Source of the DNA: Rhodopseudomonas palustris | GTDB taxonomy: Bacteria; Pseudomonadota; Alphaproteobacteria; Rhizobiales; Xanthobacteraceae | Length of the DNA stretch: 64,000 nucleotides | Assembly (NCBI RefSeq): GCF_034479375.1 | Contig: NZ_CP140155.1 | Span: forward strand, 5,060,501-5,124,500 | Direction: 5' to 3' | Shown: positions 31,844 to 42,221 of the stretch, piece by piece | Layout of the letters: each line of letters opens with the position of its first letter | Position numbering within the stretch: the first letter of the stretch is position 1 | Notes under the pieces: model-generated | What the model was told of the DNA's origin: nothing | Databases searched by the model: none | The model's input: the letters and a program-made list of their open reading frames with translations, nothing else | Position numbers and translations under genes: made by a program

Positions 31844-33073
31844 ATGCCAGAGACACTGATCAAGGTCGATCTCACGCAGTCCGCTTACGACAACGAGATG
31901 GTCCACAACCGCTGGCACCCGGACATTCCGATGGCGGCGTGGGTCAATCCCGGCGACGATTTCATCGTCGAGACCTACGACTGGACCGGCGGCTTCATCA
32001 AGAACAACGATTCCGCCGACGACGTCCGCGACATCGATTTGTCGATCGTGCACTTCCTGTCCGGTCCGATCGGCGTCAAGGGCGCCGAGCCCGGCGATCT
32101 TCTCGTCGTCGACCTGCTCGACGTCGGCCCGATGAAGGAGAGCCTGTGGGGCTTCAACGGCTTCTTCTCCAAGCAGAACGGCGGCGGCTTCCTCACCGAT
32201 CACTTCCCGCTGGCGCAGAAGTCGATCTGGGACTTCAAGGGCATGTACACCTCGTCGCGCCACATCCCGGGCGTGAACTTCGCCGGCCTGATCCATCCCG
32301 GCCTGATCGGCTGTCTGCCCGATCCGAAGCTGCTGGCCACCTGGAACGAGCGCGAGACCGCGTTGATCGCCACCAACCCGACCCGCGTGCCCGGCCTCGC
32401 CAATCCGCCGTTCGGGCCGACCGCGCATATGGGCAAGCTCACCGGCGACGACAAGGCGAAAGCGGGAGCGGAAGGCGCCCGCACCGTGCCGCCGCGCGAA
32501 CACGGCGGCAATTGCGACATCAAGGATCTGTCGCGCGGCTCCAAGATCTACTTCCCGGTCTATGTGCCGGGCGGCGGCCTGTCGATGGGCGACCTGCATT
32601 TCAGCCAGGGCGACGGCGAGATCACCTTCTGCGGCGCCATCGAGATGGCCGGCTGGCTGCACATCAAGGTCGACATCATCAAGGACGGCGTGTCGAAATA
32701 CGGCGTCAAGAATCCGATCTTCAAGCCGTCGCCGGTGACGCCGAACTACAAGGATTATCTGATCTTCGAGGGCATCTCGGTCGACGAGCAAGGCCAGCAG
32801 CATTATCTCGACGTCACCGTCGCGTATCGCCAGGCTTGTCTCAATGCCATCGAGTATCTGAAGAAGTTCGGCTACTCCGGCGCCCAGGCCTATTCGATCC
32901 TCGGCACCGCGCCGGTGCAGGGCCACATCTCCGGCGTCGTCGACGTCCCCAACGCCTGCGCCACGCTGTGGCTGCCGACCGAGATCTTCGACTTCGACAT
33001 GATGCCGTCGTCGGCCGGGCCGGTCAAACACATCAAGGGCGACATCCAGATGCCGATCTCGCAGGACAAGTAA
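31844..33073 (+). CDS. fmdA: Formamidase
   Basis: A 409-residue protein of the acetamidase/formamidase (FmdA/AmdA) family, which hydrolyses formamide to formate and ammonia. Typical stretches are GWVNPGDDFIVETYDWTGG-like near residue 35 (here AAWVNPGDDFIVET), NVKGAEPGDLLVVDLLD-like (GVKGAEPGDLL), the GGNCDIKDLSRGSKIYFPV segment (about 224-242), and GGLSMGDLHFSQGDGEITF (about 245-263). Length equals the Methylophilus FmdA. AAGGGG precedes the ATG. Its position after an UrtA-E transporter and before fmdB suggests the operon imports formamide or related amides for nitrogen. Confidence 0.92.
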   Translation: MPETLIKVDLTQSAYDNEMVHNRWHPDIPMAAWVNPGDDFIVETYDWTGGFIKNNDSADDVRDIDLSIVHFLSGPIGVKGAEPGDLLVVDLLDVGPMKESLWGFNGFFSKQNGGGFLTDHFPLAQKSIWDFKGMYTSSRHIPGVNFAGLIHPGLIGCLPDPKLLATWNERETALIATNPTRVPGLANPPFGPTAHMGKLTGDDKAKAGAEGARTVPPREHGGNCDIKDLSRGSKIYFPVYVPGGGLSMGDLHFSQGDGEITFCGAIEMAGWLHIKVDIIKDGVSKYGVKNPIFKPSPVTPNYKDYLIFEGISVDEQGQQHYLDVTVAYRQACLNAIEYLKKFGYSGAQAYSILGTAPVQGHISGVVDVPNACATLWLPTEIFDFDMMPSSAGPVKHIKGDIQMPISQDK

Positions 33074-35079: not shown

Positions 35080-37098
35080 ATGGTCGAGCTCGCCGTCCAG
35101 CTCTGGTGCGTCGCTGCGCTGCTCGCGATCGCGGTCGCCGCCGTGCCGCTGAGCCGCAAGCCCCGCCTCGCCACCGCGATCATCTATTCGGCGACGCTGG
35201 TCGCCTGCGCGATCGCCACCGCCAGCGCGCTGACCTGGCTGCTGCTGCATGCGGACGCCGCCGCCGAGCGCACGCTGCCGATCGGGCTGCCCTGGCTCGG
35301 CGCGCATCTGCGGCTCGATGCGCTGGCGGCGTTCTTTCTCGTCGTGGTCAATCTCGGCGGCACGCTGGCGAGCCTGTATGCGCTCGGCTATGGCCGCCAC
35401 GAACACGCGCCGCATCGGGTGCTGCCGTTCTATCCGGCGTTTCTCGCCGGCATGAACATGGTGGTGCTTGCCGCCGACGCGTTCTCCTATCTGCTGAGCT
35501 GGGAGTTCATGTCGCTGGCGTCGTGGGCGCTGGTGATGACGCATCATCGCGATCCCGCCAATCGCCGCGCCGGCTATGTCTATCTGCTGATGGCGAGCTT
35601 CGGCACGCTGGCGCTGCTGCTCGCCTTCGGCCTGCTCGCGGGCGCCGCCGGAAACTACGATTTCGCCGCGATCCGCGCCGCGCAGCACGCGCCGTGGATC
35701 GCGACGCTGGTGCTGATCCTGCTGCTGTTCGGCGCCGGCTCCAAGGCCGGACTGGTGCCGTTGCACGTCTGGCTGCCGCTGGCGCATCCGGCGGCGCCGA
35801 GCCACGTCTCGGCGCTGATGAGCGGCGTGATGACCAAGGTCGCGGTCTACGGCTTCATCCGCGTGGTGTTCGATCTGCTCGGCACGCCGGACTGGTCGAC
35901 CTCCGGGATCGTGCTGGCGCTCGGCGGCATCACGGCGGCGCTCGGCATTCTTTATGCGCTGATGGAGAAGGACCTGAAGCGGCTGCTGGCCTATTCGACG
36001 ATCGAGAATGTCGGCATCATCTTCGTCAGCCTCGGCCTGGCGCTGGCGTTCCAGGCCAATCATCAGCCGCTGCCGGCGGCGCTGGCCTTCACCGCGGCGC
36101 TGTTCCACGTGCTCAACCATTCGCTGTTCAAGAGCCTGCTGTTCTTCGGCGCCGGCGCGGTGCTGAGTGCCACCGGCGAGCGCGACATGGACAAGCTCGG
36201 CGGACTGATCCACCGCATGCCGTTCACCAGCGTGGTGTTCCTGATCGGCTCGATCGCGATCTCGGCGCTGCCGCCGTTCAACGGCTTCGTCTCCGAATGG
36301 CTGATCTTCCAGGCGGTGCTGCAGAGCCCGCAACTGCCGCAATGGGGCCTGAAAATTCTGGTGCCGGCGGTCGGCGGCTTGATGGCGCTGGCCGCGGCTC
36401 TGGCGGCGGCGTGTTTCGTCAAGGCCTATGGCGTGACGTTCCTCGGCCGGCCGCGCGGCCCGGCGACGCTGGCTGCGAAAGAGGTCGATCGCTTCTCGCT
36501 CGCCGCGATGGCGATCCTCGCCGCGTTGTGCCTGCTCGCCGGCGTGCTGCCCGGCATGGTGATGGACGCTTTGGCGCCGATCGCTACCGAGATCCTCGGC
36601 AGCCGGCTCGCGCCGCAGAGCGGAATGGCGTGGCTGTCGATCGTGCCGATCGCGCAGAGCCACAGCTCCTATAACGGCCTCCTGGTCGCGGTGTTCATCG
36701 CGGTGTCGGCGTCGCTGTCGTTCGTGGCGATCCGGCTGTTCTCCTCCGGCGCGGTGCGGCGCGGGCCGGCCTGGGGCTGCGGCTTCACCGATCCGGCGCC
36801 GCTGGCGCAATATTCGGCGGCCGGCTTCGCGCAGCCGATCCGCCGGGTGTTCGGCACGCTGATCTTCCGCGCCCGCGATCACGTCACCATGCCGCCGCCC
36901 GGCGACACCGCCCCGGCGCGGCTGCGGATCGAACTGCACGACCAGATCTGGGAGCGGATCTATGCGCCGCTCGCCGGCGGCATCATGGCGGCGTCGGTGC
37001 GTCTCGACAGGATGCAGCTCCTCACCATCCGCGGCTATCTCAGCCTGGTGTTCGCCACCCTCGTCACGCTGCTGCTGGTGCTCGCGATATGGACCTGA
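35080..37098 (+). CDS. hyfB: Hydrogenase-4-like membrane subunit HyfB (antiporter-like)
   Basis: A 672-residue protein with about sixteen membrane helices of the NuoL/MrpA antiporter-like family. Family features include LLSWEFMSLASWALVMTHH (about residues 130-148), the lysine-bearing GAGSKAGLVPLHVWLPLAHP (about 222-241), ALMEKDLKRLLAYSTIENVGI (about 295-315) and ALFHVLNHSLFKSLLFFGAGAV. These hold the Lys/Glu/His residues of the proton path. The C-terminal ~130 residues are a HyfB/HycC-type extension. It should carry ion translocation in the complex. First gene of a six-gene operon; hyfC overlaps its end by 10 bases. Confidence 0.88.
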   Translation: MVELAVQLWCVAALLAIAVAAVPLSRKPRLATAIIYSATLVACAIATASALTWLLLHADAAAERTLPIGLPWLGAHLRLDALAAFFLVVVNLGGTLASLYALGYGRHEHAPHRVLPFYPAFLAGMNMVVLAADAFSYLLSWEFMSLASWALVMTHHRDPANRRAGYVYLLMASFGTLALLLAFGLLAGAAGNYDFAAIRAAQHAPWIATLVLILLLFGAGSKAGLVPLHVWLPLAHPAAPSHVSALMSGVMTKVAVYGFIRVVFDLLGTPDWSTSGIVLALGGITAALGILYALMEKDLKRLLAYSTIENVGIIFVSLGLALAFQANHQPLPAALAFTAALFHVLNHSLFKSLLFFGAGAVLSATGERDMDKLGGLIHRMPFTSVVFLIGSIAISALPPFNGFVSEWLIFQAVLQSPQLPQWGLKILVPAVGGLMALAAALAAACFVKAYGVTFLGRPRGPATLAAKEVDRFSLAAMAILAALCLLAGVLPGMVMDALAPIATEILGSRLAPQSGMAWLSIVPIAQSHSSYNGLLVAVFIAVSASLSFVAIRLFSSGAVRRGPAWGCGFTDPAPLAQYSAAGFAQPIRRVFGTLIFRARDHVTMPPPGDTAPARLRIELHDQIWERIYAPLAGGIMAASVRLDRMQLLTIRGYLSLVFATLVTLLLVLAIWT

Positions 37099-38045
37099 TC
37101 GCCGACATCGCCGTGCAGGGCGTGCAGATGCTGCTGGTGTTCCTGCTGGCGCCGCTGCTCACCGGCTTCATCCGCAAGGTCAAGGCGCGGCTGCAGCGCC
37201 GCCGCGGCCCGTCGCTGCTGCAGCCCTATCGCGATCTGGTCCGGCTGCTGCGCAAGGAAGTCGTGCTCGCCGACAACGCCTCCTGGCTGTTCCGCGCCGT
37301 GCCCTACGTCACCTTCGCGGCGATCTGGGTCGCCGCCGCGCTGGTGCCGACCTTCGCCACCGGGCTGTTGTTCAACTGGACCGCGGATCTGATCGTGATC
37401 GTCGCGCTGCTCGGCACCGCGCGGTTCTTCCTCGCGCTCGCCGGCATGGATGTCGGCACCTCGTTCGGCGGCATCGGCTCGTCGCGCGAGGTGATGATCG
37501 CCGCATTGGCCGAGCCGGCGATGCTGATGATCGTGTTCTGCGTTGCGCTGGTCGCGGGCACCACGCATCTGTCGACCGTTGCCAATTACATCGCCTCGAC
37601 CGCGGTCGGCCTGCGCGTCTCGCTCGGCCTCGCCATGATCGCGCTGGTGATGGTGGCGCTCGCCGAGAACGCCCGCATTCCGATCGACAATCCCTCGACC
37701 CACCTCGAACTCACCATGGTGCACGAGGCGATGATCCTGGAATATTCCGGCCGGCATCTGGCGCTGATCGAATACGGCGCGCAGCTCAAGCTGCTGCTCT
37801 ACGTCTCGCTGATCGTCTGCCTGTTCTATCCCTGGGGCATCGGCGTGTTCGGCGCCGGCCCCGTGGCCTATCTGGCCGGCGCGGCGCTGTATCTGTTCAA
37901 GATCACCGTCGCCGGTTTCCTGCTCGCGGTGTTCGAGACCGCCACCGCCAAGATGCGGGTGTTCCGCGTGCCGCAATTCCTCGGCGCCGCCCTGATGCTC
38001 GGTCTGCTCGGCACGCTTCTTCTCTTTGTCTCGAAGGGGCTGTAG
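37089..38045 (+). CDS. hyfC: Hydrogenase-4-like membrane subunit HyfC (NuoH-like)
   Basis: A 318-residue protein of the HycD/HyfC/NuoH family with about eight helices. The N-terminal loop RKVKARLQRRRGPSLLQPY (about residues 29-47) and the acidic cytoplasmic loop ALAENARIPIDNPSTHLELTM (about 191-211), with HEAMILEYSGRHLALIE after it, are conserved features that couple the quinone- or hydrogenase-site arm to the membrane arm. It anchors the HyfG/HyfI peripheral module. Overlap with hyfB and only two bases to hyfE show tight coupling. Confidence 0.9.
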   Translation: MDLIADIAVQGVQMLLVFLLAPLLTGFIRKVKARLQRRRGPSLLQPYRDLVRLLRKEVVLADNASWLFRAVPYVTFAAIWVAAALVPTFATGLLFNWTADLIVIVALLGTARFFLALAGMDVGTSFGGIGSSREVMIAALAEPAMLMIVFCVALVAGTTHLSTVANYIASTAVGLRVSLGLAMIALVMVALAENARIPIDNPSTHLELTMVHEAMILEYSGRHLALIEYGAQLKLLLYVSLIVCLFYPWGIGVFGAGPVAYLAGAALYLFKITVAGFLLAVFETATAKMRVFRVPQFLGAALMLGLLGTLLLFVSKGL

Positions 38046-38047
38046 CG

Positions 38048-38710
38048 ATGCACGGGCTCGCCTTCGACATCTCGCATTCGCTGGCCGGCGGCCTGGTGCT
38101 GGTGTCGTTCATGATGCTGTATCAGGACCGGCTGACCTCGCTGCTCAACGTGTTCGCGCTGCACGCGATCATGCTGTCGCTGGCGGTGGGATGGCAGGCG
38201 CTGATCCAGGACGCGCCGCATCTCTACGTCACCGCCCTGATCGCGCTGCTGTTCAAGGCGATCATCATTCCGGTGGCGCTGCGCCGGATCGTCTACAAGC
38301 TCGGCATCCACCGCGACATCGAAACCGTGGTCGGGATCGGCCCGACCATGCTCGCCGGGATGGGGCTGGTAGCGCTGTCGCTGGCCCTGATGCTGCGCGT
38401 CACCGCGGATGCCGACGCGCTGGCGCGCGAGGACCTCGCGTTTGCGCTGTCGGTGGTGCTGCTCGGGCTGCTGTTCATGGTGACGCGGCGTAACGCGGTC
38501 AGCCAGGTGATAGGCTTCATGTCGCTGGAGAACGGGCTGATCCTCGCCGCGGCCGGCGCCAAGGGGATGCCGCTGGTGGTCGAGATCAGCGTCGCGTTCT
38601 CGGTGCTGATCGCCTTCATCGTCATCGGCATCGTGCTGTTCCGGATCCGCGAACGCTTCGACTCGGTCGACGTCTCGCAGCTCGACGTCTCGCGCGGAGA
38701 GCAGCGATGA
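38048..38710 (+). CDS. hyfE: Hydrogenase-4-like membrane subunit HyfE (NuoK-like)
   Basis: A 220-residue, six- to seven-helix protein of the HyfE family. It ends in a NuoK-like part (MSLENGLILAAAGAKGMPLVVEISVAFSVL-type sequence, about residues 158-185) with the membrane glutamates expected in ion-translocating subunits. The ATG at 38048 lies two bases after the hyfC stop; the long upstream extension of the frame is shadow inside hyfC. The stop overlaps hyfF (ATGA). No separate HyfD gene exists in the operon. Confidence 0.85.
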   Translation: MHGLAFDISHSLAGGLVLVSFMMLYQDRLTSLLNVFALHAIMLSLAVGWQALIQDAPHLYVTALIALLFKAIIIPVALRRIVYKLGIHRDIETVVGIGPTMLAGMGLVALSLALMLRVTADADALAREDLAFALSVVLLGLLFMVTRRNAVSQVIGFMSLENGLILAAAGAKGMPLVVEISVAFSVLIAFIVIGIVLFRIRERFDSVDVSQLDVSRGEQR

Positions 38711-40158
38711 GTTTGTCCGGCCTCGATCCGGTGGTGGGCGTGCTGCTGATCCCGGTCTGCGCCGCCATCGTGCTGGCGCTGCTGCCGGGCTACAAATTGA
38801 CCGCGCGGCTCAACGTCGTCGCGAGTCTGGGCAGCTTTCTCTGCGCGGCCTCGCTGCTGGTGCTGCCGCGCCCGCAGCCTGGGCCGTACATTTTGGTCGA
38901 CGATCTCAACATCGTCTTCATCGTGCTGAACACCTTCGTCGGCTTCACCACCAGCCTGTTCAGCGCCAGCTACATCGCCCACGAACTCGAGACCGGCAAG
39001 CTGACGCCGACCTATCTGCGATTCTACCACGCGATGTACCAGATCATGATGTTCGGCATGAATCTGGCGTTCGTGTCGAACAATATCGGCCTGATGTGGG
39101 TGGCGGTGGAATTGGCGACGCTGACCACGGTGCTGATGGTCGGCATCTATCGGACGCCGGCGGCGCTGGAAGCGGCGTGGAAGTATTTCATCCTCGGCAG
39201 CGTCGGCATCGCGCTGGCGCTGTTCGGCACAATCCTCGTCTACATGGCGGCGCGGCCGGTGGTCGGCGAGGGCCAGGACGGCATGATCTGGACCGTGCTG
39301 GTGGCGCGCGCCGCCGGCTTCGACGCGCCGCTGCTGAACGTCGCCTTCGTGTTCCTGTTCCTCGGCTACGGCACCAAGGTCGGCCTCGCGCCGCTGCACG
39401 CCTGGCTGCCCGACGCCCACGCCGAAGGCCCGACGCCGATCTCGGCGGTGCTGTCCGGCCTGCTGCTCAACGTCGCGCTGTATGCGCTGCTGCGCTTCAA
39501 GATGCTGCTCGCCGCCAATGGCGAGGCGATGCCGCCCGGCGTGCTGATGATCGTGATGGGGCTGGCGTCGCTGTTGTTCGCCGCCTTCATGCTGTATCGG
39601 CGGCGCGACATCAAACGGCTGTTCGCCTATTCGTCGATCGAGCACATGGGCATCATCGTGTTCGCCTTCGGCATGGGCGGCCCGCTGGCGAATTTCGCCG
39701 GGCTGCTGCACATGGTGATGCACAGCCTGACCAAATCGGCGATCTTCTTTGCGGTCGGCCACATCACCCAGGTCAAGGGCACGCAGTCGCTGGCGAAGAT
39801 CCGCGGCATCACCGAGACCCACCCGGTGCTCGGCTGGGGCCTCGTCGTCGGCGTGGCGGCGATCGCCGGGCTGCCGCCGCTCGGCATCTTCATGAGCGAA
39901 TTCCTGCTGGTGTCGTCGACCTTCGCGCGCGCGCCGTGGCTGGCGCTGCTGCTGGTGTTCGGCATTCTGGTGGCGTTCGGCGCGCTGATGCTGCGGCTGA
40001 CCGGCATCGCCTTCGGTCGGCCGCGCGGCAGCCGCGAGCCGGTGCAGGCGTCCTACGTGCCGATGTTCGCGCATCTGGCGCTGGTGCTGATCGCCGGCGT
40101 GTATCTGCCGGCGCCGGTGGTGGCGTGGTTCCAGCACGTCGCCAAGCTGCTGGGCTAG
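38707..40158 (+). CDS. hyfF: Hydrogenase-4-like membrane subunit HyfF (antiporter-like)
   Basis: A 483-residue NuoM/NuoN-like antiporter-type subunit with about fourteen helices. Features: MWVAVELATLTTVLMVGIYR (the conserved Glu in helix 5), LFLGYGTKVGLAPLHAWLPDAHAEGPTP (conserved Lys and loop), RRRDIKRLFAYSSIEHMGII, and MHSLTKSAIFFAVGHI. With HyfB this gives two antiporter-like channels, enough for a genuine energy-coupling complex. hyfG follows after 15 bases. Confidence 0.9.
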   Translation: MSLSGLDPVVGVLLIPVCAAIVLALLPGYKLTARLNVVASLGSFLCAASLLVLPRPQPGPYILVDDLNIVFIVLNTFVGFTTSLFSASYIAHELETGKLTPTYLRFYHAMYQIMMFGMNLAFVSNNIGLMWVAVELATLTTVLMVGIYRTPAALEAAWKYFILGSVGIALALFGTILVYMAARPVVGEGQDGMIWTVLVARAAGFDAPLLNVAFVFLFLGYGTKVGLAPLHAWLPDAHAEGPTPISAVLSGLLLNVALYALLRFKMLLAANGEAMPPGVLMIVMGLASLLFAAFMLYRRRDIKRLFAYSSIEHMGIIVFAFGMGGPLANFAGLLHMVMHSLTKSAIFFAVGHITQVKGTQSLAKIRGITETHPVLGWGLVVGVAAIAGLPPLGIFMSEFLLVSSTFARAPWLALLLVFGILVAFGALMLRLTGIAFGRPRGSREPVQASYVPMFAHLALVLIAGVYLPAPVVAWFQHVAKLLG

Positions 40159-40173
40159 GGAGCAACAGATCCG

Positions 40174-41685
40174 ATGCCGTCGCTGATCGATCTCAACCTC
40201 GAAGGCCTGCAGGTGGCGCGGCATCGGCCGTGGACCCGCACAGTGGTCGACAGCGCGGTGTGGAGTTTCGCGGTGCGCATGCTCGCCGAGCGGCAGTGGC
40301 AATTGCTGTCGCTGTGGGGCGAGCCAATGAGCGTGCACATGGCGCTGTTCGATCCGCGCACCGCGGAGATCGGAATCGTCAGCCTCGACTGTCCGCACGG
40401 CTCGTTTCCCTCGGTCGCCGCCAGGCATCTGCCGGCGCTGCGGCTGGAACGCACGATCACCGATCTGTTCGGCCTGAAGCCCGAGGGAGCGATCGACGAT
40501 CGGCCCTGGCTCGATCACGGCCAATGGGGCGTCCACGCGCCGCTCGGCGCGCGGAGCGAAGCGCTCACGCCGACGCCGGCCTATCGCTTCCTGCCGGTCG
40601 AGGGCGACGGGACCCATCAGGTCGCGGTCGGCCCGGTGCATGCCGGCATCATCGAGCCAGGGCACTTCCGCTTCACCGTCAGCGGCGAGACCGTGGTGCG
40701 GCTGGAGCAGCGGCTCGGCTACGTCCACAAGGGCATCGACGGGCTGATCGCCGGCGCGGATTTGCCGCGTGCCGCGCGGCTGGCCGGCCGCGTCTCCGGC
40801 GACAGCACGGTGGCCTATGCGCTGGCGTTTTCGCGCGCGGTCGAGACCGCGGCGGAGATCGCGGTGCCGGCGCGCGCGGTGTGGCTGCGGGCGCTCGTCG
40901 CCGAGCTGGAGCGTCTCGCCAATCATCTCGGCGACATCGGCGCGATCTGCAACGACGCGGCGTTCGCCATCATGCTGGCTCAGTTCGGCGTGCTACGCGA
41001 AAACGTGCTGCGTGCCGCCGACACCGCGTTCGGCCATCGCCTGATGCGCGACGTAGTGACGCCCGGCGGAGTGGCGCGCGATCTCGACGACGCCGGCAAG
41101 GCCGCGATCCGCGCCGCGCTGGCCGCCGTGCGCGCCAAGCTGCCGGCGCTGATCGAGCTGTACGACAGCACGGCGTCGCTGCAGGACCGCACCGTGTCGA
41201 CCGGCATCCTCAAGCCCGCGCTCGCCGATCAATACGCCGCCGGCGGCTATGTCGGCCGCGCCTCCGGCCGCGGCTTCGATGCCCGGCGCACGCTGGCTTA
41301 CGCGCCCTATGACGAGCTGCGCTTCGACGTCCCGGTGCTGACCGAGGGCGACGTCGACGCGCGGGTCTGGATCCGGATTCGCGAGGTCGAGCAGAGTCTG
41401 TCGCTGGTCGACCAGATCCTCGACCGGCTGCCGCGCGGCGAGATCCGCGTCGCGCCGAATCTGCCGGAGGAGGTCTGCGAAGGGCTGGCGCTGGTCGAAG
41501 GGTTTCGCGGCGATATCCTCGTCTGGCTGCGGCTACACAATGGTGTCGTCGAGCGCTGCCATCTGCGCGACCCGTCGTGGTTTCAATGGCCGCTGCTGGA
41601 AGCCGTGATCGAAGGCAACATCGTCGCCGACTTCCCGCTGTGCAACAAATCGTTCAACTGCTCCTACTCCGGCGTGGATCTGTAG
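40174..41685 (+). CDS. hyfG: HyfG-like large subunit without the NiFe-site cysteines (Ehr-type)
   Basis: A 503-residue fusion of a NuoC-like 30-kDa domain (about residues 1-130) and a NuoD/NiFe-large-subunit domain (about 150-503). The fold markers are intact: GYVHKGIDGL, ELERLANHLGDIGAICNDAAF, GGYVGRASGRGFDARR and DFPLCNKSFNCSYSG. The four NiFe ligands are not. The N-terminal CxxC is RVSGDST (Ser208, Ser211). The C-terminal CxxC keeps Cys496 but has Ser499. The protein cannot hold a standard NiFe centre. It resembles large subunits of energy-converting hydrogenase-related (Ehr) complexes, evolutionarily between complex I and group 4 hydrogenases. Confidence 0.88.
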   Translation: MPSLIDLNLEGLQVARHRPWTRTVVDSAVWSFAVRMLAERQWQLLSLWGEPMSVHMALFDPRTAEIGIVSLDCPHGSFPSVAARHLPALRLERTITDLFGLKPEGAIDDRPWLDHGQWGVHAPLGARSEALTPTPAYRFLPVEGDGTHQVAVGPVHAGIIEPGHFRFTVSGETVVRLEQRLGYVHKGIDGLIAGADLPRAARLAGRVSGDSTVAYALAFSRAVETAAEIAVPARAVWLRALVAELERLANHLGDIGAICNDAAFAIMLAQFGVLRENVLRAADTAFGHRLMRDVVTPGGVARDLDDAGKAAIRAALAAVRAKLPALIELYDSTASLQDRTVSTGILKPALADQYAAGGYVGRASGRGFDARRTLAYAPYDELRFDVPVLTEGDVDARVWIRIREVEQSLSLVDQILDRLPRGEIRVAPNLPEEVCEGLALVEGFRGDILVWLRLHNGVVERCHLRDPSWFQWPLLEAVIEGNIVADFPLCNKSFNCSYSGVDL

Positions 41686-41687
41686 CG

Positions 41688-42221
41688 ATGCGCAAGCTGC
41701 TGTTCGAGAGCCTGTTCGCCAGACCGCTGACCGAACCTGCCCCGGCGCCGGGCGAGGCCGGCGTCGCCGAACTCGCGGCGCTGGTCGAGGCCACCGCGCG
41801 GCGCACGCTCGGCCGCAGCCTTGCGATCCGCGAGGTCGACGCCGGCTCCTGCAACGGCTGCGAGCTGGAAATCCACGCGCTGAGCAACGCGTATTACGAC
41901 GTCGAACGCTTCGGCCTGCGTTTCGTCGCTTCGCCGCGCCACGCCGATGTGCTGATGGTCACCGGGCCGGTGACGCACAATATGCGCGAGGCGCTGCGGC
42001 TCACTTACGACGCGGTGCCGGGGCCGAAATGGGTGGTCGCGGTCGGCGATTGCGCCAAGGACGGCGGCTGCTTCGCCGGCAGCTACGCGGTCGCCGGCGG
42101 CGTCTCCGCAGTGATCCCGGTCGATCTGCACATCCCCGGCTGTCCGCCGAAGCCGGTGGAGATCCTGCGCGGTCTGCTGGCGCTTCTTGATCGCGTTGCC
42201 ACGCGCGAAACGCCGCGTTGA
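41688..42221 (+). CDS. hyfI: HyfI-like small subunit (NuoB-like) with intact [4Fe-4S] ligands
   Basis: A 177-residue NuoB/HycG/HyfI-family protein. The ligands of the proximal (N2-type) cluster are all visible: SCNGCELE (about residues 53-60), GDCAKDGGCF (about 117-126) and PGCPP (about 147-151). So electron transfer to the HyfG site is still possible, although that site lacks NiFe ligands. It is the last gene of the operon. No HyfA or HyfH ferredoxin subunit and no hydrogenase maturation gene lies in the operon or nearby, so the electron donor or acceptor is unknown. Confidence 0.9.
   Translation: MRKLLFESLFARPLTEPAPAPGEAGVAELAALVEATARRTLGRSLAIREVDAGSCNGCELEIHALSNAYYDVERFGLRFVASPRHADVLMVTGPVTHNMREALRLTYDAVPGPKWVVAVGDCAKDGGCFAGSYAVAGGVSAVIPVDLHIPGCPPKPVEILRGLLALLDRVATRETPR

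Follow-up and report, generated by a model that had tools for sequence, protein, structure and literature searches.

The stretch of DNA analysed here (the window) comprises 64,000 nucleotides (nt) of Rhodopseudomonas palustris, positions 5060501 to 5124500 of a single-contig genome of 5,305,909 bases, and carries six plus-strand open reading frames (ORFs) in the order hyfB-C-E-F-G-I at 35080 to 42221. An earlier note on this DNA had interpreted these genes as a hydrogenase-4-like complex whose large subunit has lost its nickel-iron (NiFe) site. The operon is already published as hyq, the "endo-hydrogenase" of Azorhizobium caulinodans (PMC2650096, PMC2930871, PMC3357923), and an alignment legend in PMC3357923 names orthologues in R. 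palustris HaA2, BisA53, BisB18 and BisB5; the new part here is the survey of the host and family genomes together with the residue counts. The six genes are the following.

35080..37098, plus strand: hyfB/hyqB, antiporter-like subunit with a NuoL-type core and a C-terminal extension (672 amino acids (aa); PF00361, 191 bits; NF005086, 914 bits)
37089..38045, plus strand: hyfC/hyqC, membrane anchor of NuoH type (318 aa; PF00146, 142 bits)
38048..38710, plus strand: hyfE/hyqE, small membrane subunit (220 aa; ATG at 38048; same position in the gene order of relatives)
38707..40158, plus strand: hyfF/hyqF, second antiporter-like subunit, NuoM type (483 aa; NF005043, 928 bits)
40174..41685, plus strand: hyfG/hyqG, large subunit without NiFe ligands (503 aa; PF00346, 141 bits)
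41688..42221, plus strand: hyfI/hyqI, small subunit with one predicted [4Fe-4S] cluster (177 aa; PF01058, 115 bits in the longer frame from 41577)

Neighbouring genes overlap or are separated by at most 15 nt: HyfB and HyfC overlap by 10 nt and HyfE and HyfF by 4, while gaps of 2, 15 and 2 nt separate HyfC from HyfE, HyfF from HyfG and HyfG from HyfI, and these coordinates agree with the packing and order described earlier. HyfE, previously called intact, is indeed an ORF with a fitting identity, but its profile matches, scored on the frame from 38042, stay below threshold (NF008556, 79 bits with a cut-off of 136; PF00420, 20 bits with a cut-off of 26). HyfG joins a NuoC-like N-terminal part to the NuoD/NiFe-large-subunit fold; its best relative in the PDB is HycE (7z0s, E=5e-54), and among the window proteins PF00374 reaches 24 bits on it, under its cut-off. 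PDB relatives of HyfI include MbhJ (6cfw, E=4e-38) and HycG (7z0s, E=2e-36).

The large subunit was compared across the family in an alignment of 124 distinct HyfG sequences, the window's included (127 found, 126 with a complete C-terminus), together with E. coli HyfG and HycE and the two NuoD copies of the host. The other 123 sequences are 39-92% identical to the HyfG of the window. Two short segments of this protein hold the positions of the former metal site.

40789..40809, plus strand: HyfG residues 206-212, RVSGDST, where the E. coli enzymes have RVCGICG (codons counted from the start at 40174)
41629..41682, plus strand: HyfG residues 486-503, DFPLCNKSFNCSYSGVDL, with Asn495 at the canopy Asp and Ser497 and Gly500 at ligand positions

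The Ni/Fe ligands of HycE, Cys241, Cys244, Cys531 and Cys534, align with Ser208, Ser211, Ser497 and Gly500 of HyfG. Ser208 is found in 122 of the 124 sequences (Cys in the other two), Ser211 in 112 (Cys in none), Ser497 in 120 (Ala in four) and Gly500 in all, as is Asp210, which lies between the former N-terminal ligands where the E. coli hydrogenases have Ile. The reading of RVSGDST as a replaced CxxC, with Ser208 and Ser211 at the cysteines, is thus borne out by the alignment with HycE. At the C-terminus the register of the earlier note was off by one: it had counted Cys496 as the survivor of a pair with Ser499, but Cys496 (117/124) sits on Pro530 of HycE, the proline of DPCxxC, and Ser499 on an ordinary Ser, the true pair being Ser497 and Gly500. 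With this correction HyfG retains no ligand at all, where the earlier reading had left it one, so that the loss of the NiFe site stands and only its extent had been understated, as three ligands instead of four. An alignment that places the ligand cysteines elsewhere in HyfG, which had been named as one outcome that would speak against the loss, was not obtained with HyfG, HycE and NuoD, none of the four positions holding Cys.

All 124 HyfG sequences stop three residues after Gly500, as do the two NuoD copies of the host, where E. coli HyfG and HycE have 35 residues. This C-terminal tail of hydrogenase large subunits is the part cut off by maturation proteases. As controls, both CxxC pairs and the tail are found in E. 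coli HyfG and HycE as well as in three true Hyf/Hyc loci that were fetched. In an unrooted FastTree tree, HyqG falls apart from Hyf/Hyc and NuoD with a support of 1.0.

Residues of the proton relay and of the canopy are named in the structural work on formate hydrogenlyase (FHL), in which canopy Asp529 appears to be strictly conserved in complex I as well (PMC9474812). HycE Glu193, His284, Arg395, Glu437 and Arg478 are retained in HyfG as Glu161, His251, Arg362, Glu404 and Arg445, while Asp192 is replaced by Ile160 and Asp529 by Asn495, which is Asn in all 124 sequences. The His and Tyr that hold the quinone headgroup in NuoD fall on Ile160 and Gly209, each present in 123 of 124, which gives no support to the idea of a quinone-like site comparable to that of complex I. 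Judged from these aligned residues, the predicted pocket of HyfG is not a NiFe site, nor is it a canonical quinone site, but it hardly varies across the family, and both canonical ubiquinone binding and NiFe chemistry in it are disfavoured. The strongly conserved residues of this re-made pocket are Glu161, Arg206, Ser208, Asp210, Ser211, Arg445, Asn495, Ser497 and Gly500. Since the altered ligand motif is common to 124 distinct sequences, it cannot be put down to chance. Three HyqG cysteines near 258, 491 and 497 have been described as complete across the eight genera of PMC3357923; they correspond to Cys259 (121/124), Cys490 (112/124) and Cys496 of the window and are not complete in the present set. 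One HyqG with 49% identity (L042) has GPVFGGVEASSQF in the otherwise fixed GPVHAGIIEPGHF loop and Pro at 496, and retains RISGDS.

The remaining subunits carry conserved functional residues. As had been claimed, HyfI has all of its [4Fe-4S] ligands: Cys55, Cys58, Cys122 and Cys152 are those of E. coli HyfI, are at least 97% conserved (n=74) and follow the hydrogenase-type CxxC spacing. The two antiporter-like subunits and HyfC had likewise been called intact, and the Lys, Glu and His residues associated with pumping are retained. Conserved in at least 97% of the sequences are HyfB Glu142, Lys222, Lys253, His343/347, Lys351 and Glu406 (63 sequences; also in E. coli HyfB), HyfC Glu134, Glu142, Glu193, Glu207, Glu213, Glu218 and Asp200 (68 sequences) and HyfF Glu135, Lys224, His231, Lys265, His339, Lys343 and Glu398 (75 sequences); the conserved charged residues of the three proteins are mostly common to E. 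coli Hyf. Ratios of nonsynonymous to synonymous substitution rates (dN/dS) of 0.008-0.22 for the six genes, taken against three relatives, point to purifying selection. Given the retained cluster cysteines and pump residues and the low dN/dS, the operon very likely encodes a working unit, with a single predicted Fe-S cluster.

Strongly altered six-gene versions in the same apparent order are present in two alphaproteobacterial loci, L136:7375-14155 and L137:6464-13253 (minus strand). Their HyqI keeps the four cysteines, whereas B, C, E and F have lost almost every aligned pump residue, and the site motif of HyqG is different again, the closest named relatives of the L136 HyqG being from Commensalibacter. 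The B, C, E and F genes of these loci were assigned by position, at 14-20% identity, and B, C and F of L136 match no Pfam family; if the assignment is right, the electron-transfer part can outlive the pump.

The absence of maturation and ferredoxin-subunit genes, also asserted earlier, is confirmed for the window, in which tblastn (E<=1e-6) detected no relative of hyfA, hyfH, hyfJ, hycI, hypA or hypB; the same holds for all 81 sources, that is the window and 80 hyq loci, many of which are cut by contig ends. The negative result for the C-terminal protease HycI applies to the window and these loci, to which the search was limited. Matches to hyfD, seen in 77 sources, all lie inside hyqB or hyqF. 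In the single-contig host genome hypD has no match, the only match to PF00374 (the [NiFe] large subunit) is HyfG itself at a sub-threshold 22 bits, and the [FeFe] domain PF02906 is absent, Hmd and the other hyp genes lying outside these genome-wide searches. The nitrogenase gene nifH is present (447.5 bits). The features of a [NiFe] group 4 hydrogenase are therefore lacking, with none of the four ligands kept, no hypD in the genome and no cleavable tail. According to PMC2930871, the activity claimed for A. caulinodans survives deletion of the whole hup/hyp operon, and the occurrence of hyq in natural hosts that lack hypD, the present one among them, parallels this independence of Hyp.

In the survey of hyq distribution the GTDB family was represented by 119 genomes, sampled evenly from a larger number at one genome per species, some of the assemblies being fragmented or incomplete. 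The operon is patchy (56/119), and its order is B-C-E-F-G-I in loci where all six genes matched. Among the 56 hyq genomes, 34 are without hypD (four of these being single contigs), 34 are without nifH over the cut-off (33 if a truncated copy is counted) and 30 are without both; when completeness of 90% or more and contamination of 5% or less are required, 48 hyq genomes remain, of which 26 lack hypD and 26 lack nifH. Both hyq and nifH occur in 22 genomes, nifH only in 10, hyq only in 34 and neither in 53 (Fisher p=0.0066; counting two truncated nifH matches as well gives 23 genomes with both and p=0.0077). Phylogeny was handled in these statistics by shuffling within genera only. When hyq is so shuffled, the mean number of genomes with both genes is 21.7 (p=0.61), and a genus-level test gives p=0.31; the association thus vanishes within genera and is carried by genus-level relatedness. 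The dedication to nitrogen fixation proposed for A. caulinodans was accordingly rejected for the family, as was the statement in PMC2930871 that hyq is generally absent from non-diazotrophs, which does not hold with 34 of 56 hyq genomes lacking nifH over the cut-off. No significant link was found between hyq and ccoN (cbb3 oxidase), RuBisCO form I or the large subunit of CO dehydrogenase.

In a sample of 299 genomes from the phylum, 58 have hyq (at least 41% identity), of which 11 have nifH (p=0.13) and 21 have hypD (p=0.07). As a positive control, hypD accompanies seven of the nine more distant matches (27-33%), and the three of these seven that were fetched are true Hyf/Hyc loci with CxxC pairs and relatives of hyfH, hyfJ and hycI; the two distant matches without hypD are the altered forms L136 and L137. 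The family is large, with at least 8,000 protein candidates and at least 580 stretches confirmed in a scan of genome contigs. Among the matches listed, the closest named relatives of HyfG are from Rhodopseudomonas. Relatives of HyfG (window 40174-41685) go by the names hydrogenase expression protein HypE, NADH-quinone oxidoreductase subunit C and Ni,Fe-hydrogenase III large subunit, and such database names (hydrogenase-4, HypE) wrongly suggest H2 metabolism and could mislead surveys.

We therefore favour, with a probability of about 0.6 and on the evidence of sequence, the interpretation that the operon encodes a nickel-free, single-cluster, ion-pumping electron-transfer complex, the Hyq family of the energy-converting hydrogenase-related (Ehr) type, and not a [NiFe] hydrogenase. 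Its predicted subunits make Hyq the bare six-subunit core common to group 4 hydrogenases and complex I. The hyqRBCEFGI operon of A. caulinodans (AZC_4361-4355) has the same six structural subunits in the same order, and CxxC is absent there too (PMC3357923). Ehr complexes are described as group 4 relatives without Ni/Fe-binding residues and with antiporter-like subunits (PMC6349859), which by sequence applies equally to Hyq; a formate dehydrogenase partner is proposed there for the Ehr under study, while no partner gene recurs at hyq loci. The assignment to an Ehr-like ion-pumping unit in the earlier note thus fits the evidence, but it had left unmentioned the published "endo-hydrogenase" and the role in H2 metabolism claimed for it. 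The E. coli hyf/hyc systems include the closest solved relative, HycE, whose five relay residues are shared with HyfG, and differ in that HyfA, HyfH, the third antiporter HyfD, HycI/HyfJ and the C-terminal tail are theirs alone. Complex I resembles Hyq in its fold, its pump subunits and the absence of the NiFe cysteines, but has the quinone His and Tyr and an input module for NADH with Fe-S clusters, both of which Hyq lacks.

In the mechanism that we infer, a soluble one-electron carrier (ferredoxin or flavodoxin) would meet the HyfI cluster directly. This cluster would be the sole relay, with electrons moving between the carrier and an acceptor or donor in the chamber formed by HyfG, HyfI and HyfC, and the reaction in the re-made pocket would move ions through HyfB and HyfF, in either direction with respect to the proton-motive force. 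In nitrogen fixers, the complex would link the membrane with the pool of low-potential electrons, and loss of hyq would alter H2 output and nitrogen-fixing growth indirectly. The set of Hyq residues is absent from the hydrogenases and complex I copies aligned here and may be useful for the debate on electron-driven pumping.

Several observations weigh against this interpretation. Glu161, the proton-relay Glu of true hydrogenases, is kept in 123 of 124 HyfG sequences. In the family, 22 of 28 hypD genomes have hyq (Fisher p=1.7e-4), an excess that is not significant within genera (permutation p=0.11). The carrier and the substrate of the pocket are both deduced, with no partner gene found in the neighbourhood. 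Moreover, the nifK hupSL double mutant of A. caulinodans still evolves H2 fast in low O2 (PMC3357923), which is difficult to reconcile with a Hyq that takes no part in H2 turnover; the strain table of that paper does not list a nifK hupSL hyq triple mutant. The mutant data of 2009-2012 speak for a complex that handles H2, and the sequence for one with no known H2 site.

A rival explanation is the proposal made for A. caulinodans, in which Hyq is an H2:quinone oxidoreductase without nickel: HyfG would split or make H2 at a novel site that is not of the NiFe type, and the HyfI cluster would relay the electrons to quinone. The authors of PMC3357923 credit the complex, whose HyqG in their account has neither CxxC motif, with both uptake and evolution of H2 on the strength of mutant phenotypes: in Table 2, strains deleted for hyq lose ten to fifteen times as much H2 at 20 uM O2, and below 1 uM O2 their H2 evolution drops by ~60% (Hup present) to 77% (Hup absent). 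A species with hyq and without hup/hyp is also said to recycle H2, though the data are not presented in that paper (PMC2930871), and the hydrogenase-type Glu161 of HyfG and CxxC spacing of HyfI are in keeping with the proposal. Set against this, a cell-free H2 assay was not at hand, as the authors of PMC3357923 state, and the hyq deletion mutant still shows its 21% deficit in diazotrophic growth when H2 is saturating and Hup is present (PMC2650096), so that recycling of H2 alone is insufficient and a function besides H2 is indicated. Nitrogenase H2 cannot be the general substrate, given the 34 of 56 hyq genomes without nifH over the cut-off. We know of no precedent for H2 catalysis without an [NiFe], [FeFe] or [Fe] site, and we regard this proposal as improbable, the room left by the A. 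caulinodans data for a nickel-free H2 enzyme amounting to a small but real chance. In the boldest form of this idea, which takes the A. caulinodans phenotypes at face value and draws on the presence of hyq in genomes that lack hypD, Hyq would be a fourth kind of hydrogenase, a nickel-free and Hyp-independent H2 enzyme on the NuoD fold, whose oxygen and single-cysteine ligands (Ser208, Asp210, Ser211, Ser497, Cys496) would bind some other metal or no metal at all; this is a long shot. The present host is a good place to learn the role of Hyq, as it has nifH and hyq and no confounding Hup enzyme was found. A further genome, G108, likewise combines hyq and nifH with a lack of hypD.

A complex I-like alternative, in which electrons fed by ferredoxin reduce a quinone-like molecule in the chamber, would account for the common fold, the conserved E-channel and anchor residues and the loss of all four ligand cysteines, as in complex I. 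It is nevertheless unlikely, although it deserves attention: the headgroup His and Tyr are replaced by Ile160 and Gly209 almost throughout, the canopy Asp shared by complex I and hydrogenases is Asn without exception, and HyfI has CxxC where the small subunit of complex I has an adjacent pair of cysteines (PMC7684303). The sulfane sulfur reductase of Pyrococcus furiosus (MBS) offers a solved precedent for a group 4 relative with neither a NiFe site nor the quinone residues (PMC7684303), and a remodelled hydrogenase of this kind would use the proximal [4Fe-4S] cluster itself to convert a small molecule, for instance a sulfur compound. However, two of the four NiFe cysteines survive in MBS, its proximal cluster is bound by three Cys, and an extra subunit, MbsN, carries two more clusters (PMC7684303), whereas HyfG keeps none of the NiFe cysteines and HyfI has four conserved cysteines with CxxC spacing and predicted coordination by all of them, which makes an MBS-like reaction very unlikely. 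Finally, the lost ligands and the patchy presence of hyq in the family could suggest a former hydrogenase in decay without present function, an explanation that is barely credible, being contradicted by the selection acting on all six genes, by pocket columns that stay nearly constant between sequences as little as 39% identical to that of the window, and by the conserved gene order.

Returning to the preferred reading of Hyq as a nickel-free electron-transfer complex, its neighbourhood was examined in the 80 loci with gene calls from a home-made composition heuristic, which may miss small partners, many contigs ending near the operon. No conserved partner gene was found, the only flanking family in more than six loci being a short helix-turn-helix protein in 18 of them (e.g. 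L055:3584-3904). In 16 of these 18 it lies upstream of hyqB on the same strand, and it is probably the HyqR of the A. caulinodans operon. While A. caulinodans has hyqR, control by NifA and sigma-54, and hup/hyp, this host shows no such regulator just upstream of hyfB in the window, no NifA box or sigma-54 site at the operon and, as noted, no hypD. Among 61 upstream regions of hyq, none has both NifA-box-like and sigma-54-like sites; sigma-54-like sites occur in 5 against 5.4 expected, and NifA-box-like sites in 7 against 3.3 expected. We take hyqR and NifA/sigma-54 control to characterise the type member, not the Hyq family as a whole. Our searches of the open-access literature found no later papers on Hyq.

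The operon is flanked upstream by cobS, which is transcribed away from it, and downstream by a GDSL autotransporter gene. A formamidase gene, fmdA, lies at 31844-33073 of the window (762 bits); read by eye from the ORF list, a small FmdB-like ORF comes after it, and the ORFs before it resemble ATPases of ATP-binding cassette (ABC) transporters; the region is probably an amide-uptake cluster unrelated to hyq. A link to formate through the formamidase was considered and rejected, since among the 80 loci the gene recurs only in two Rhodopseudomonas loci (L053 and L054), which looks like local synteny. Besides HyfG, the genome holds two NuoD copies of complex I, at 1545109 and 5197932, the second of which lies inside an open frame of 724 codons and is perhaps a fused NuoCD.

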